Positions 1,361 to 6,504 of a stretch of 40,373 nucleotides of DNA are shown one piece after another. The translations under genes and the position numbers were made by a program. How positions within the stretch are numbered: position 1 is the stretch's first letter; every line of letters starts with the position of its first letter. Under the pieces are notes generated by a model that did no database searches, was not told the origin of the DNA, and saw only the letters and a program-made list of their open reading frames with translations. This stretch comes from Halodesulfovibrio sp. (lineage in GTDB: Bacteria; Desulfobacterota; Desulfovibrionia; Desulfovibrionales; Desulfovibrionaceae): the NCBI GenBank assembly GCA_003252375.1, contig QKEJ01000136.1, positions 1 to 40,373 on the forward strand. Direction: 5' to 3'.

Positions 1361-1618
1361 CTAAAAGGGCTCGGCTTCCATCTTCAGGCGGTTCAGGCGT
1401 ACCTGGGCATACTGTACCTGCACCTGCATCTGGTTCTTGGTCTGCCGGTTCTGATGGATCTCGGCGGCGAAGAAGATGCCCCGGGCCGGATCCTCGGCCG
1501 CGAAAAGACGCTTCTGTTCGGCATCCAGCGCCGTGAGCTCCTGCGTATACTGATCAATCAGAGTCAGAAGTTCCGGGATGCTATTCGGCAATGATTCTGC
1601 GTCGTTTGGGTTGCTCAC
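1361..1618 (-). CDS. small hypothetical protein, likely helical
   Basis: 85 residues, family not recognised. The start is GTG at 1618, supported by an aggag SD nine to ten bases upstream on the minus strand. The protein is rich in Glu, Gln, Asn and Leu, with heptad-like spacing of hydrophobics from about residue 15 to 80 and no Cys, signal peptide or membrane segment, so a soluble helical or coiled-coil protein is likely. The start overlaps the end of the upstream EPSP synthase-like gene by 38 bases, which suggests translational coupling and one transcript. Function unknown. The SD and the position before a terminator support a real gene. Confidence 0.65.
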   Translation of the reverse strand: MSNPNDAESLPNSIPELLTLIDQYTQELTALDAEQKRLFAAEDPARGIFFAAEIHQNRQTKNQMQVQVQYAQVRLNRLKMEAEPF

Positions 1619-3182
1619 TGGTATTCTCCTGTCTGGGCTTGCGGACCATGGTCGGTTCGGGAAGGCCGTTGTAGAATGTCCAGAAGGACGGCATGAGGTC
1701 GGTTACCGTTCCGGGGTTGGAGAGCTTGATGGAACGCTTGAGGAAGGCGAGCAGGGCAAAGGCCATGGTCCAGTAGGCGTCCGGGCTGCTCCATACGGTG
1801 GAGGCGGGCACGTTGGCCGAAGGGAAGACCTTGCCGTCGTCAATGAGCATGTTGGCCTGAGCCACGAATCCCTCGACCAGTGCGCCGTCCATGCCTTCGG
1901 GCATGGGGGGCAGGGCAACCGGGTTGCCGGTGTTCTTGGCGCGTGCGCAGGAAACCGCCACCGCAAGGGGGTAGTACTGCGCGGGCAGGGCGCCCAGCAC
2001 GGCCTGTTCCGCCTTGTTCACGTTCTCCGTTGCCGTGGCCGTGACCGAACCGTTGCCGGTGACGACGTCCAGGCCGAAGGAACGCAGCAGCCCCAGGGCG
2101 TCGGCGCCTTCGGGCAGGGCTTCGGGCCAGTCGCCGCCGAGGCGGACGGTGCCCGAGGTGAAGGCCGGGAGGGAAAGCAGGACCGAACAGATGGCCGGGT
2201 CCAGCGTCTGGAGCGGTTCTGCAGGAACGGCTGCCGGGCCGGGCAGGATGCTGAACGCGCTGACCGTGCCGTCGATGCGGATGTCGCACTGTTCGAGCAG
2301 GGCGCGGGCCTCGTTCAGGCAGGTCTCGCCGTGCGGGTTGTTGTTGAGATTGATGGTTACCGGCACATCCCACGTGGCGGCTGCAACAAGCACGGCGACA
2401 ACGGCATCGGCAGGCAAGTCGCCGGGAATGGCGATGGCGTCGGGGATGACCCCGGAGCATTCAAGCCGCACGGGCAGGCCGTTGGAGCGGGGAATGACGT
2501 GCGCGATGCGTGCGCCGAGCTGCGGCAGGAAGTGGCGGAAGGCGGTGAAGTCCGCATCCTTGAGGACGGAGCCGCCGGTAAACTTGAGGGTGCCGTGGCG
2601 ACCTGCGGCCATGAGGGCCAGCAGGTAGAAGTTCAGGTGATCGTCACCTGCGAATATGACCTTGTCGGCAAAGGTGAGGGCATCGTTCCCCTTGCTGACG
2701 ATATCGTCGTTCTGCCAGTGCAGTGCAGCGCCCGCCTGGTTGAGGGCCTTGGACAGTTCCACCACGGGGGCGGCGCTGACCAGTCCCTTGAGGCGGCTCT
2801 CGGCGCCGGCGGCGGCCGTCATGGCCATCCACAGCTGAGCTTCACGCAGGGAAGCCGGGCCGGGCAGGTCCACGTTGACGGGCTTGCGGTTGGGAGACAG
2901 GGTGAAATCCGTCTTTTCGTCAGCCTCGGTCTTGGACGTGAACTCGATGTCCTGGATCAGACTGAACAGCTGCCGGGCGAGACGGGGGTCCTTGCTGAAC
3001 TTGGCGGCATTGGCCTCCCACAGCAGACGCAACTGCTTCTCGCTGGAAATTCCTGTGGTGCCGGAGCCCTCTTTCTTGGGGCGGCGGGTCTTCTGGACGA
3101 GCTTGGAGCGGCGTGCCAGCAGCTTCATCAAATCCACGTCCATTTCACTGATCTCTTCGACCAGGGTCATATTCTTCTTCAT
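1581..3182 (-). CDS. chorismate mutase-like / EPSP synthase-like fusion, probably non-catalytic
   Basis: 533 residues from the ATG at 3182 (aaggcg eight bases upstream); upstream in-frame starts have no SD. Residues ~5-85 resemble an AroQ chorismate mutase helix bundle (DVDLMKLLARRSKLVQKTR, then KDPRLARQLFSLIQDIEF). Residues ~105-510 follow the EPSP synthase fold: the C-terminal MAFALLAF and PSFWTFYNGL match the family's end. However, the signature residues look replaced. PGSKS reads PGPAS, the GNAGT loop reads AGDDH, the RVKETDR motif reads PEALPEG, DHRMA reads DAYWTMA, and the Lys near the C-terminus (SKTFP) reads TDLMP. Likely a pseudo-enzyme or a divergent paralogue with a new role. It is divergent from aprB and overlaps the small gene downstream. 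Alignment was by eye. Confidence 0.7.
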   Translation of the reverse strand: MKKNMTLVEEISEMDVDLMKLLARRSKLVQKTRRPKKEGSGTTGISSEKQLRLLWEANAAKFSKDPRLARQLFSLIQDIEFTSKTEADEKTDFTLSPNRKPVNVDLPGPASLREAQLWMAMTAAAGAESRLKGLVSAAPVVELSKALNQAGAALHWQNDDIVSKGNDALTFADKVIFAGDDHLNFYLLALMAAGRHGTLKFTGGSVLKDADFTAFRHFLPQLGARIAHVIPRSNGLPVRLECSGVIPDAIAIPGDLPADAVVAVLVAAATWDVPVTINLNNNPHGETCLNEARALLEQCDIRIDGTVSAFSILPGPAAVPAEPLQTLDPAICSVLLSLPAFTSGTVRLGGDWPEALPEGADALGLLRSFGLDVVTGNGSVTATATENVNKAEQAVLGALPAQYYPLAVAVSCARAKNTGNPVALPPMPEGMDGALVEGFVAQANMLIDDGKVFPSANVPASTVWSSPDAYWTMAFALLAFLKRSIKLSNPGTVTDLMPSFWTFYNGLPEPTMVRKPRQENTSEQPKRRRIIAE

Positions 3183-3964: not shown

Positions 3965-4453
3965 ATGCCGACTTACGTAGACCCGTCTAAGTGCGATGGC
4001 TGCAAGGGTGGCGAAAAGACCGCCTGCATGTACATCTGCCCTAACGACCTCATGATTCTGGATCCCGAAGCAATGCGTGCTTTCAACCAGGAACCTGAGG
4101 CTTGCTGGGAATGTTACTCCTGTGTGAAGATTTGCCCCCAGGGCGCAATCACCGCACGTCCCTACGCTGACTTCGCACCCATGGGCGGTACTTGTATCCC
4201 CATGCGTTCCGCCGATTCCATTATGTGGACTGTTAAGTTCCGTAACGGCAATGTGAAGCGCTTCAAGTTCCCGATCCGCACCACCCCTGAAGGTTCCATC
4301 AAGCCCTTCGAAGGCAAGCCCGAACCGAAGGACCTGGATGACGAACTGCTGTTCACCGAATCTGCTCTGGTTGCTCCCAAGGAAGCTATGGGCCAGAAGA
4401 TTGAAGTGGCTGAAGCAGACATCACCATGGTTAAGAAGGCTTCCGCTGTTTAA
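3965..4453 (+). CDS. aprB: adenylyl-sulfate reductase, beta subunit
   Basis: Iron-sulfur subunit of APS reductase, a cytoplasmic enzyme that with AprA reduces adenosine 5'-phosphosulfate to sulfite and AMP. 162 residues, normal for Desulfovibrio. Two [4Fe-4S] binding sets are clear: CDGCKGGEKTACMYICP from residue 10, and CWECYSCVKICP from about residue 47. The C-terminal part (residues ~75-162) is the extension that wraps AprA. The start has a strong ggagg SD. aprA follows after 53 bases with its own SD. Codon choice (GAA for Glu, GCT/GTT) indicates very high expression, unlike most other genes here. Confidence 0.97.
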   Translation: MPTYVDPSKCDGCKGGEKTACMYICPNDLMILDPEAMRAFNQEPEACWECYSCVKICPQGAITARPYADFAPMGGTCIPMRSADSIMWTVKFRNGNVKRFKFPIRTTPEGSIKPFEGKPEPKDLDDELLFTESALVAPKEAMGQKIEVAEADITMVKKASAV

Positions 4454-4506: not shown

Positions 4507-6504
4507 ATGCCGATGATTCCTGCTAAGGAACAGCCCCGTGGTGTTGCTATCGCTGAGCCGGTAGTCAAGGAACACGACGTTGACATCCTTATGGTTGGTG
4601 GTGGTATGGGTAACTGCGGCGCCGCTTTTGAAGCTGTGCGCTGGGCTGACAAGTTCGCTCCCGAACTGAAGATCATGCTGGTTGACAAGGCTGCCCTCGA
4701 GCGCTCCGGTGCTGTTGCCCAGGGTCTGTCCGCAATCAACACCTACCTCGGCAAGAACGACGCTGACGACTACGTCCGCATGGTTCGTACCGACCTCATG
4801 GGCCTGGTTCGCGAAGACCTTATCTTCGACCTGGGCCGTCACGTTGACGATTCCGTTCACCTGTTCGAAGAGTGGGGCCTGCCCTGCTGGATCAAGGACG
4901 AAAACGGTCACAACCTTGACGGCGCTGCCGCTAAGGCTGCCGGCAAGTCCCTGCGCAACGGCGACGAATGCGTTCGTTCCGGCCGCTGGCAGATGATGAT
5001 CAACGGTGAATCCTACAAGTGCATCGTGGCTGAAGCCGCCAAGAACGCTCTTGGCGAAGAACGCCTGATGGAACGTATCTTCATCGTGAAGCTGCTCCTC
5101 GACTCCAAGGAAGAAAACCGCATCGCCGGCGCCGTGGGCTTCAACCTGCGTGCCAACGAAGTGCACATCTTCCGCACCAACGCCATGGTTGTGGCTTGCG
5201 GCGGCGCCGTTAACGTGTACAAGCCCCGCTCCACCGGTGAAGGCATGGGTCGTGCATGGTACCCCGTTTGGAACGCAGGTTCCACCTACACCATGTGTGC
5301 TCAGGTTGGCGCTGAAATGACCATGATGGAAAACCGCTTCGTCCCCGCCCGCTTCAAGGACGGTTACGGCCCGGTTGGCGCATGGTTCCTGCTCTTCAAG
5401 GCTAAGGCTACCAACTTCAAGGGCGAAGACTACTGCGAAACCAACCGCGCCATGCTGAAGCCCTACGAAGATCGCGGCTACGCCAAGGGTCACGTTATCC
5501 CGACCTGTCTGCGTAACCACATGATGCTTCGCGAAATGCGCGAAGGTCGCGGCCCCATCTACATGGACACCAAGACCGCTCTGCAGACCACCTTCGAAAC
5601 CATGACTCCCGCACAGCAGAAGCACCTCGAAGCTGAAGCTTGGGAAGACTTCCTCGACATGTGTGTTGGCCAGGCTAACCTCTGGGCCGCCTCCAACATC
5701 CAGCCCGAAGAAACCGGTTCCGAAATCATGCCCACCGAACCTTACCTCCTCGGTTCCCACTCCGGCTGCTGCGGCATCTGGACTTCCGGTCCCGACGAAT
5801 CCTGGGTTCCCGAAGACTACAAGGTGCGCGCTGCCAACGGTAAGGTCTACAACCGTATGACCACCGTTATGGGCCTGTGGACCTGCGCTGACGGCGTTGG
5901 CGCTTCCGGCCACAAGTTCTCCTCCGGTTCCCATGCTGAAGGCCGTATCTGCGGCAAGCAGATGGTCCGCTGGTGCATCGATCACAAGGACTACAAGCCT
6001 TCCATCGCTGAAGATCCCAAGGCCCTTGCTGACCTGATCTACCGTCCCTACAAGAACTACGAAGCCGGCAAGGGTGCATCCACCTGCTCCGTGGTTAACC
6101 CCGAGTTCATCTCGCCCAAGAACTTCATGATGCGTCTCGTCAAGGCTACTGACGAATACGGCGGCGGCGTAGGCACCTACTACACCACCTCCGAAGCAGC
6201 CCTGAACACCGGCTTCCACCTGCTGGACATGCTGGAAGAAGACTCCCTGAAGCTCGCTGCCCGCGACCTGCACGAACTGCTTCGTTGCTGGGAAAACTAC
6301 CACCGTCTGTGGACCGTTCGTCTGCACATGCAGCACATCGCGTTCCGTACGGAATCCCGTTACCCCGGCTTCTACTACCGTGCAGACTTCATGGGCCTGG
6401 ACGACTCCAAGTGGAAGTGCTTCGTTAACTCGAAGTACGACGTGAAGACCGGTGAAACCACCATCTTCAAGAAGCCCTACTACCAGATCATTCCCACTGC
6501 TTAG
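4507..6504 (+). CDS. aprA: adenylyl-sulfate reductase, alpha subunit
   Basis: Catalytic FAD subunit of APS reductase, of the fumarate reductase/succinate dehydrogenase flavoprotein fold. 665 residues, full length. The dinucleotide motif MVGGGMGNCGAA lies near residue 30. The segments LRNHMMLREMREGRGP, LLGSHSGCCGIWTSG and HKFSSGSHAEGRICGKQM are strongly family-typical and include the substrate- and FAD-contacting region. The SD aggag sits nine bases before the ATG. Codon use is heavily biased towards the highly expressed set, as for aprB. The gene ends in a strong terminator, so qmoABC is probably expressed at another level. Its likely electron donor complex is encoded directly downstream. Confidence 0.98.
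   Translation: MPMIPAKEQPRGVAIAEPVVKEHDVDILMVGGGMGNCGAAFEAVRWADKFAPELKIMLVDKAALERSGAVAQGLSAINTYLGKNDADDYVRMVRTDLMGLVREDLIFDLGRHVDDSVHLFEEWGLPCWIKDENGHNLDGAAAKAAGKSLRNGDECVRSGRWQMMINGESYKCIVAEAAKNALGEERLMERIFIVKLLLDSKEENRIAGAVGFNLRANEVHIFRTNAMVVACGGAVNVYKPRSTGEGMGRAWYPVWNAGSTYTMCAQVGAEMTMMENRFVPARFKDGYGPVGAWFLLFKAKATNFKGEDYCETNRAMLKPYEDRGYAKGHVIPTCLRNHMMLREMREGRGPIYMDTKTALQTTFETMTPAQQKHLEAEAWEDFLDMCVGQANLWAASNIQPEETGSEIMPTEPYLLGSHSGCCGIWTSGPDESWVPEDYKVRAANGKVYNRMTTVMGLWTCADGVGASGHKFSSGSHAEGRICGKQMVRWCIDHKDYKPSIAEDPKALADLIYRPYKNYEAGKGASTCSVVNPEFISPKNFMMRLVKATDEYGGGVGTYYTTSEAALNTGFHLLDMLEEDSLKLAARDLHELLRCWENYHRLWTVRLHMQHIAFRTESRYPGFYYRADFMGLDDSKWKCFVNSKYDVKTGETTIFKKPYYQIIPTA

Follow-up and report, generated by a model that had tools for sequence, protein, structure and literature searches.

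EPSP synthase (EPSPS), the product of aroA, is a textbook enzyme and the target of glyphosate. In the Halodesulfovibrio genome considered here, the matches to the corresponding Pfam family (PF00275) that lie outside the locus described below are found on two contigs. MurA is encoded on contig C151 (TIGR01072, 563 bits for a cut-off of 393) and an intact AroA on contig C145 (TIGR01356, 386 bits for a cut-off of 287). This AroA displays the motifs PPSKSVSHR, RIKECDR and DHRMA, and its gene is flanked by a gene for chorismate mutase/prephenate dehydratase and by a prephenate-dehydrogenase-like gene. The same order, pheA-aroA-tyrA, is listed for D. hydrothermalis in PMC4162548.

The window, that is, the whole stretch of 40,373 nucleotides under analysis, contains a further gene of this kind, designated pEPSP for pseudo-EPSP-synthase (Table 1). 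A first-pass annotation, made from the letters of the window, had proposed that it encodes an EPSP synthase scaffold fused to a chorismate-mutase-like (CM-like) domain and deprived of its catalytic residues, and had named the lack of any other aroA, together with complementation of an E. coli aroA mutant, as an observation that would speak against this proposal. With the AroA of contig C145, a second and intact copy is at hand. No description of a pseudo-EPSP-synthase, of such a fusion between chorismate mutase and EPSPS, or of the pEPSP gene itself was found in the excerpts available from the open-access literature (subscription papers were outside the scope of the search).

Table 1. Position of pEPSP, its domains and its closest neighbors in the window
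Feature	Position	Strand	Description
Helical-hairpin ORF	1361..1618	minus	85 aa + stop, GTG start; recurrent neighbor
pEPSP (pseudo-EPSP-synthase gene)	1581..3182	minus	533 aa, ATG at 3182, stop at 1581-1583; CM-like N-terminus, EPSPS-like domain and disordered basic tail
CM-like helical domain of pEPSP	2913..3182	minus	residues about 1-90
EPSPS-like domain of pEPSP	1662..2879	minus	residues about 102-507
Disordered C-terminal tail of pEPSP	1581..1640	minus	residues 515-533 + stop; pLDDT under 50; KRRRII
aprB	3965..4453	plus	divergent neighbor of pEPSP
aprA	4507..6504	plus	divergent neighbor of pEPSP

Fold and former active sites of the pEPSP protein

The Pfam profile EPSP_synthase (PF00275) matches residues 104-415 of the window protein with 27.6 bits, above its cut-off of 22.8, and the NCBIfam aroA profile TIGR01356 reaches 40 bits (E 1.6e-10), far under its equivalog cut-off of 287. 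The conservation of the EPSP synthase scaffold, claimed by the first-pass annotation, was borne out by structure prediction. The AlphaFold2 model, computed with the 54-row family alignment as input, has a pLDDT of 88.1 and a pTM of 0.82, with a pLDDT below 50 at residues 36-40 and 515-533. Its top PDB match in Foldseek is the apo form of the Klebsiella EPSPS, 7tm4 (E 7.1e-22, 17% identity), with a TM-score of 0.82 by target length and 0.66 by query length, and EPSPS makes up most of the 50 matches listed. The profile-profile comparison of the pEPSP family with AroA by hhalign gives a probability of 99.9 and an E-value of 2.4e-31 over 400 columns, at 16% identity. A chance likeness is excluded, since a search with the single protein finds matches in 54 of 59 genomes, its own among them. 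The homology of pEPSP with EPSPS is real, though weak by sequence.

The substrate ligands were followed in a combined MAFFT alignment of 54 pEPSPs and 37 AroA rows, the sites being numbered as in E. coli AroA. Of the AroA rows, 30 come from loci in the order Desulfovibrionales and six from other families, and one is the AroA of the same genome, already included in the 30. All 19 ligand sites are retained at 36 or 37 of the 37 AroA rows, and K22, R27, R124, Q171, D313, E341, R344, R386 and K411 in all 37. By comparison, none of the 54 pEPSPs retains K22, R27, G96, R100, R124, Q171, Y200 or H385. The remaining sites are kept by some members: S23 (1/54), T97 (2/54), S169 (17/54), S170 (3/54), S197 (1/54), D313 (5/54), K340 (1/54), E341 (11/54), R344 (1/54), R386 (3/54) and K411 (2/54). 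A further site, N94, is variable in AroA itself (E in 29 rows, N in 6, D in 2) and is occupied by E in 8/54 and N in 7/54 pEPSPs. In a held-out set of 16 pEPSPs, 13 sites were examined: S23 is retained in one member and D313 in five, and the other 11 sites in none. In the window protein, K22, R27, R100, R124, K340, R344, H385, R386 and K411 have become L, L, Y, A, P, D, A, Y and D, respectively. The initial statement that essentially every substrate-binding basic residue had disappeared is therefore correct for the basic catalytic positions, none of which holds Lys or Arg, and has to be tempered by E341, which pairs with E429: not every ligand is lost.

Some of the motif pairings behind that statement are out of register, and the conclusion of ligand loss is unchanged. 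The actual counterpart of RVKETDR is MPEGMDG (residues 427-433) instead of PEALPEG, and the GNAGT site falls one residue later than the proposed AGDDH. For PGSKS, initially paired with PGPAS, MAFFT and hhalign place the site two residues later, whereas a pairwise phmmer alignment to 3nvs agrees with the initial pairing. In this phmmer register, A110 and A115 lie opposite K22 and R27, respectively, and S111 would preserve S23. The profile-profile register, compared by eye, is identical to that of MAFFT at K22, S23, R27, D313, K340, E341, R344, H385, R386 and K411. Neither of these two alignment methods places Lys or Arg at the basic catalytic positions of the window protein, the arrangement that had been set out as contrary evidence. 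A working but highly divergent EPSP synthase would agree with the fold and with a PF00275 score above the gathering threshold, but it is hardly credible when K22, R27, R124, Q171 and H385 are missing in 54/54 proteins and a separate AroA is present.

The possibility of a new enzyme, in which the cleft would catalyse a different reaction on another substrate, deserves more attention. Indeed, some cleft columns have been conserved anew. The R100 site holds Y in 39/54 pEPSPs and an aromatic residue (F, W or Y) in 14/16 held-out members; the T97 site is F or L in 48/54, the H385 site P or A in 49/54, and the Q171 and R344 sites are acidic (D or E) in 34/54 and 33/54, respectively. These few aromatic or acidic columns count against the idea that the cleft was stripped and then relaxed, and a new activity would explain them too. 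Taken as a set, however, the 19 columns of the former active site show no higher conservation in pEPSP than the other 404 columns of the EPSPS domain (mean JS 0.36 versus 0.41, p 0.29), whereas the same columns in AroA clearly stand out from the remaining ones (mean JS 0.82 versus 0.54, p 5e-11). Their median conservation percentile is the 42nd in pEPSP versus the 93rd in AroA. Moreover, no acid, base or nucleophile is invariant at any of these columns in pEPSP, and a neo-functionalised enzyme appears unlikely.

The N-terminal domain tells a less radical story. The chorismate mutase profile CM_2 (PF01817) matches residues 9-76 of the window protein with 20.6 bits (E 5e-4), under the Pfam cut-off of 27, and is matched at E <= 0.01 by 37/54 members, the best at 3.1e-11. 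The 54 pEPSPs were compared with 28 PheA-type chorismate mutase rows (the row of the same genome being counted twice), with sites in the E. coli chorismate mutase numbering. The equivalents of R28 and E52, which are R25 and E48 in the window protein, are present in 54/54 pEPSPs, and the K39 site (residue 36) is occupied by K or R in 48/54. R11 is retained in 2/54, and at the R51, S84 and Q88 sites most or all members carry other residues. The initial view of a fused CM-like domain was right. This domain is degenerate and yet incompletely stripped, since the R28 and E52 equivalents persist in every member.

Distribution, descent and selection

A profile search (E <= 1e-50) detects pEPSP in 177 of the 199 genomes of the order, and the gene is single-copy in 176 of these 177. 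The sole genome with two matches, G455, has two matches to the hairpin family of Table 1 as well. The search was extended to 395 genomes of the phylum, of which 297 match the pEPSP profile at E <= 0.001, mostly through AroA-type proteins; families f2-f6 of the order are not among the matches listed for this sample. In the family of the window, 14 of 17 genomes score >380 bits. No pEPSP was found in the other 378 genomes sampled, in which the best score is at most 174 bits and none of the listed matches starts before model position 68. Six low-scoring matches extracted from the phylum (L134-L139) group among the AroAs in the tree.

In this tree, obtained by a quick search with no bootstrap, pEPSP forms one clade that is split from AroA with full SH-aLRT support. 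The labels of AroA and of the six families require 7 changes for a minimum of 6, and on this phylogeny the clade largely tracks the families of the order. The pEPSP proteins diverge fast. L078, L079 and L081 form long branches, and the last two are placed away from their own family. The gene is absent from 18 sampled genomes of four genera (g6, g10, g25 and g41), all of which carry aprA and the hairpin gene; pEPSP is therefore dispensable in some lineages. It is retained, on the other hand, in genomes of 1.4-1.7 Mb.

Selection was estimated by the Nei-Gojobori method for nine pairs within the genus of the window. Over the whole gene, dN/dS lies at 0.063-0.21; residues 1-95 give 0.035-0.13 and residues 96-510 give 0.063-0.26. 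With a whole-gene dS of 0.60-1.10, these values are approximate. Low ratios and retention across the order support the earlier proposal that the pseudo-enzyme has been kept. A decaying pseudogene or a neutral remnant could be imagined from the loss of the catalytic residues and from the four genera deprived of the gene. It is made extremely improbable by this selection signal, by the lack of internal stop codons among the matches listed and by the retention in the small genomes.

Five residues, R25, E48, R225, P237 and E241, are invariant in the 54 pEPSPs. In the held-out set, R25 and E48 are found in 15/15 members with a residue at these positions (one gap), and R225, P237 and E241 in 16/16. 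The predicted strands 224-228 and 238-242 neighbor each other in the AlphaFold2 model. R225 and E241 would be in register on these adjacent strands, and the invariants may consequently represent a mere structural salt bridge.

Gene neighborhood and relation to metabolic pathways

The neighborhood was analysed at 54 pEPSP loci, some of which are ended by contig edges, the gene clusters being named from a representative or from the copy of the window. The divergent position relative to aprBA, already pointed out for the window, recurs widely: aprB lies upstream and divergent in 36/54 loci. The sat gene is present inside the fetched stretch in 22/54 loci. Aconitase is encoded downstream on the same strand in 28/54, a SurA/PpiD-like foldase nearby in 28/54 and an aminotransferase in 13/54. 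On the plus strand of the window, positions 2-1288 encode a PLP enzyme of Cys/Met metabolism (PF01053, E 1.6e-120), whose frame reaches the left edge. A PAS/HisKA-type protein is found after pEPSP in L058, L073, L075 and L078 (one representative, L058, was scanned), and sits between pEPSP and aconitase in the last three.

The most regular neighbor is the hairpin gene, which follows pEPSP in 46/54 loci and overlaps it in 45 when the start is aligned on the model. In the window, the overlap covers 38 bases of the pEPSP 3' end, in a different frame. Positions 1581-1618 are dual-coding: the bases for the KRRRII end of pEPSP also encode, in the other frame, NDAES within the beginning of the hairpin protein. 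This protein of about 85 aa is predicted by AlphaFold2 with a pLDDT of 89. No clear Pfam family was found for it, DivIC, ZapB, SlyX and others matching weakly, and the hairpin family has matches in 151 of the 199 genomes of the order. An obligate partnership was considered and ruled out: the 18 genomes of the four genera possess the hairpin gene without pEPSP and, conversely, pEPSP is carried by all 37 genomes of genus g40, none of which figures in the 151 hairpin matches. The hairpin protein is thus a candidate, not an obligate, partner of pEPSP.

Eight loci (L140-L147) were read in the genera without pEPSP. In g10, L143 displays sat, the hairpin gene, aconitase and the foldase gene consecutively with no pEPSP, and in L146 sat adjoins the hairpin gene and aconitase follows after about 3.6 kb. 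The simplest reading is that pEPSP was lost in g10. The hairpin gene, aconitase and foldase are also found together in L144 of g6, and the hairpin gene occurs in different surroundings in g41 (L140, L141 and L147) and g25 (L142 and L145).

In the window, the basic motif at the end of the pEPSP tail lies in the overlap with the hairpin gene. Across the family, R or K occupies aligned positions 528 and 529 in 54/54 pEPSPs, and position 530 carries a hydrophobic residue (I, V, F or L) in 53/54. The strict motif (K/R)RR(I/V) is present in 36/54 pEPSPs and in 11/16 held-out members. That the basic tail simply results from the overlap with the hairpin gene was considered and ruled out, as 8 loci lack the hairpin gene and keep the basic cluster (in its strict form in 5). 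In genus g40, the 11 pEPSPs read (L122-L129 and L131-L133) continue beyond the basic motif with an extension that is often acidic.

The vicinity of aprB in 36/54 loci and of sat in 22/54 would suit a protein dedicated to sulfate activation, a regulator or assembly factor acting on APS reductase or ATP sulfurylase. Genome contents argue against this view. Among 18 genomes with no aprA match (E <= 1e-50), 16 keep pEPSP, including 12/12 of those at least 95% complete; G484 and G488 (66% and 77% complete) are counted as negative for pEPSP, as they are not among the positives listed. Conversely, the 18 genomes of the four genera have aprA without pEPSP. An accessory protein of APS reductase would occur with aprA and depend on it, and pEPSP does not follow this pattern. 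A function devoted to sulfate activation is considered improbable.

The same type of survey bears on a second alternative, in which pEPSP would be a pseudo-subunit or an allosteric partner of AroA or chorismate mutase that senses aromatic precursors. In its favor, both modules resemble enzymes of that pathway, and the R28, E52 and K39 sites are conserved as described above. An AroA match (E <= 1e-34) is lacking in 14 of the 199 genomes, five of which are at least 95% complete; four of these five (G020, G467, G508 and G546) have pEPSP and one (G271) is without it. Three near-complete genomes, G020, G508 and G546, combine the presence of pEPSP with no match for either AroA or aprA. Assembly gaps may fake such absences; G508 nevertheless consists of 4 contigs and is 99% complete. 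Both G015 and G508 are genomes of 1.5-1.7 Mb in which pEPSP is kept and aprA is not detected, nor is AroA in the case of G508. Furthermore, no aro gene was seen among the identified recurring neighbors. An aromatic partner is accordingly as doubtful as a dedicated role in sulfate activation. In summary, pEPSP is tied neither to APS reductase nor to AroA, and this pattern of co-occurrence weakens the idea that it serves APS reduction alone or the aromatic pathway alone.

Proposed role of pEPSP and comparison with known systems

The protein has lost the active site of one half and about half of that of the other, and has nevertheless been kept through most of the order; a different, non-catalytic job is therefore probable. 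On balance, pEPSP is best explained as an ancient pseudoenzyme that probably acts, without catalysis, as an adaptor or a sensor. The pseudo-enzyme interpretation itself is supported by the alignments, and the regulatory or binding role suggested along with it is an inference. In such an adaptor, the CM-like module, with its surviving R25 and E48 and usually K or R at residue 36, would mediate dimerisation and might also accommodate a carboxylate. A platform would be formed by the EPSPS lobes, with the newly invariant strand pair bearing R225, P237 and E241, and docking onto an acidic partner, a nucleic acid or a membrane would fall to the disordered basic tail.

A more elaborate scenario, possible but rather unlikely in all its parts, can be built on this proposal. 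The two folds would have been joined in an ancestor within the order, and the EPSPS site and half of the chorismate mutase site emptied to yield an adaptor. The anion pocket of the CM-like domain would sense a carboxylate metabolite, and the tail would dock onto a partner so important that the gene has been retained even in small genomes, which would make pEPSP a core regulator. If true, one order of sulfate reducers has turned the scaffold of a metabolic enzyme into a core regulator. A ligand-stripped fusion of two aromatic-pathway folds that is kept through an order and in small genomes indicates a function that may be concealed by annotation with the names of enzymes. Annotation may mislead in this case, since the window protein passes the Pfam cut-off for EPSP_synthase. 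The single-copy status of the gene, together with the lineages without it as a natural control, makes its role genetically testable. For D. vulgaris Hildenborough, PMC10102598 describes an RB-TnSeq resource.

Compared with known systems, pEPSP shares with AroA (TIGR01356/PF00275) a two-lobed fold over about 400 residues and several common glycines and prolines. It differs from AroA by the lack of nearly all substrate ligands, by the CM-like domain placed in front and by a TIGR01356 score far under the equivalog cut-off; of the AroA features examined, the fold is present, and the equivalog score and the ligand set are not. With the AroQ-type chorismate mutases (PF01817), such as the N-terminus of the PheA of the same genome, it has in common its helical architecture, the R28 and E52 equivalents and, in most members, a basic residue (K or R) at the K39 site. 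Unlike them, it has R11, R51, S84 and Q88 replaced in most or all members, and the window protein has neither a CM_2 match at the gathering score nor the full residue set. MurA (UDP-GlcNAc enolpyruvyl transferase) belongs to the PF00275 superfamily as well; the genome has its own MurA, and TIGR01072 is matched by only 3/54 pEPSPs (E 0.001). The fusions of AroA with cytidylate kinase or prephenate dehydrogenase (NF008816 and NF011381) also combine EPSPS with another domain. These two profiles are matched by 7/54 and 3/54 pEPSPs, respectively, and both by the AroA of the same genome; in our reading, the pEPSP matches probably stem from the common EPSPS part. In pEPSP, by contrast, EPSPS is joined to an N-terminal CM-like domain and is without its ligand residues. 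Among known systems, pEPSP corresponds to a pseudoenzyme with an active paralogue: catalytic residues are lost, the fold is kept, purifying selection operates and an intact paralogue is present.
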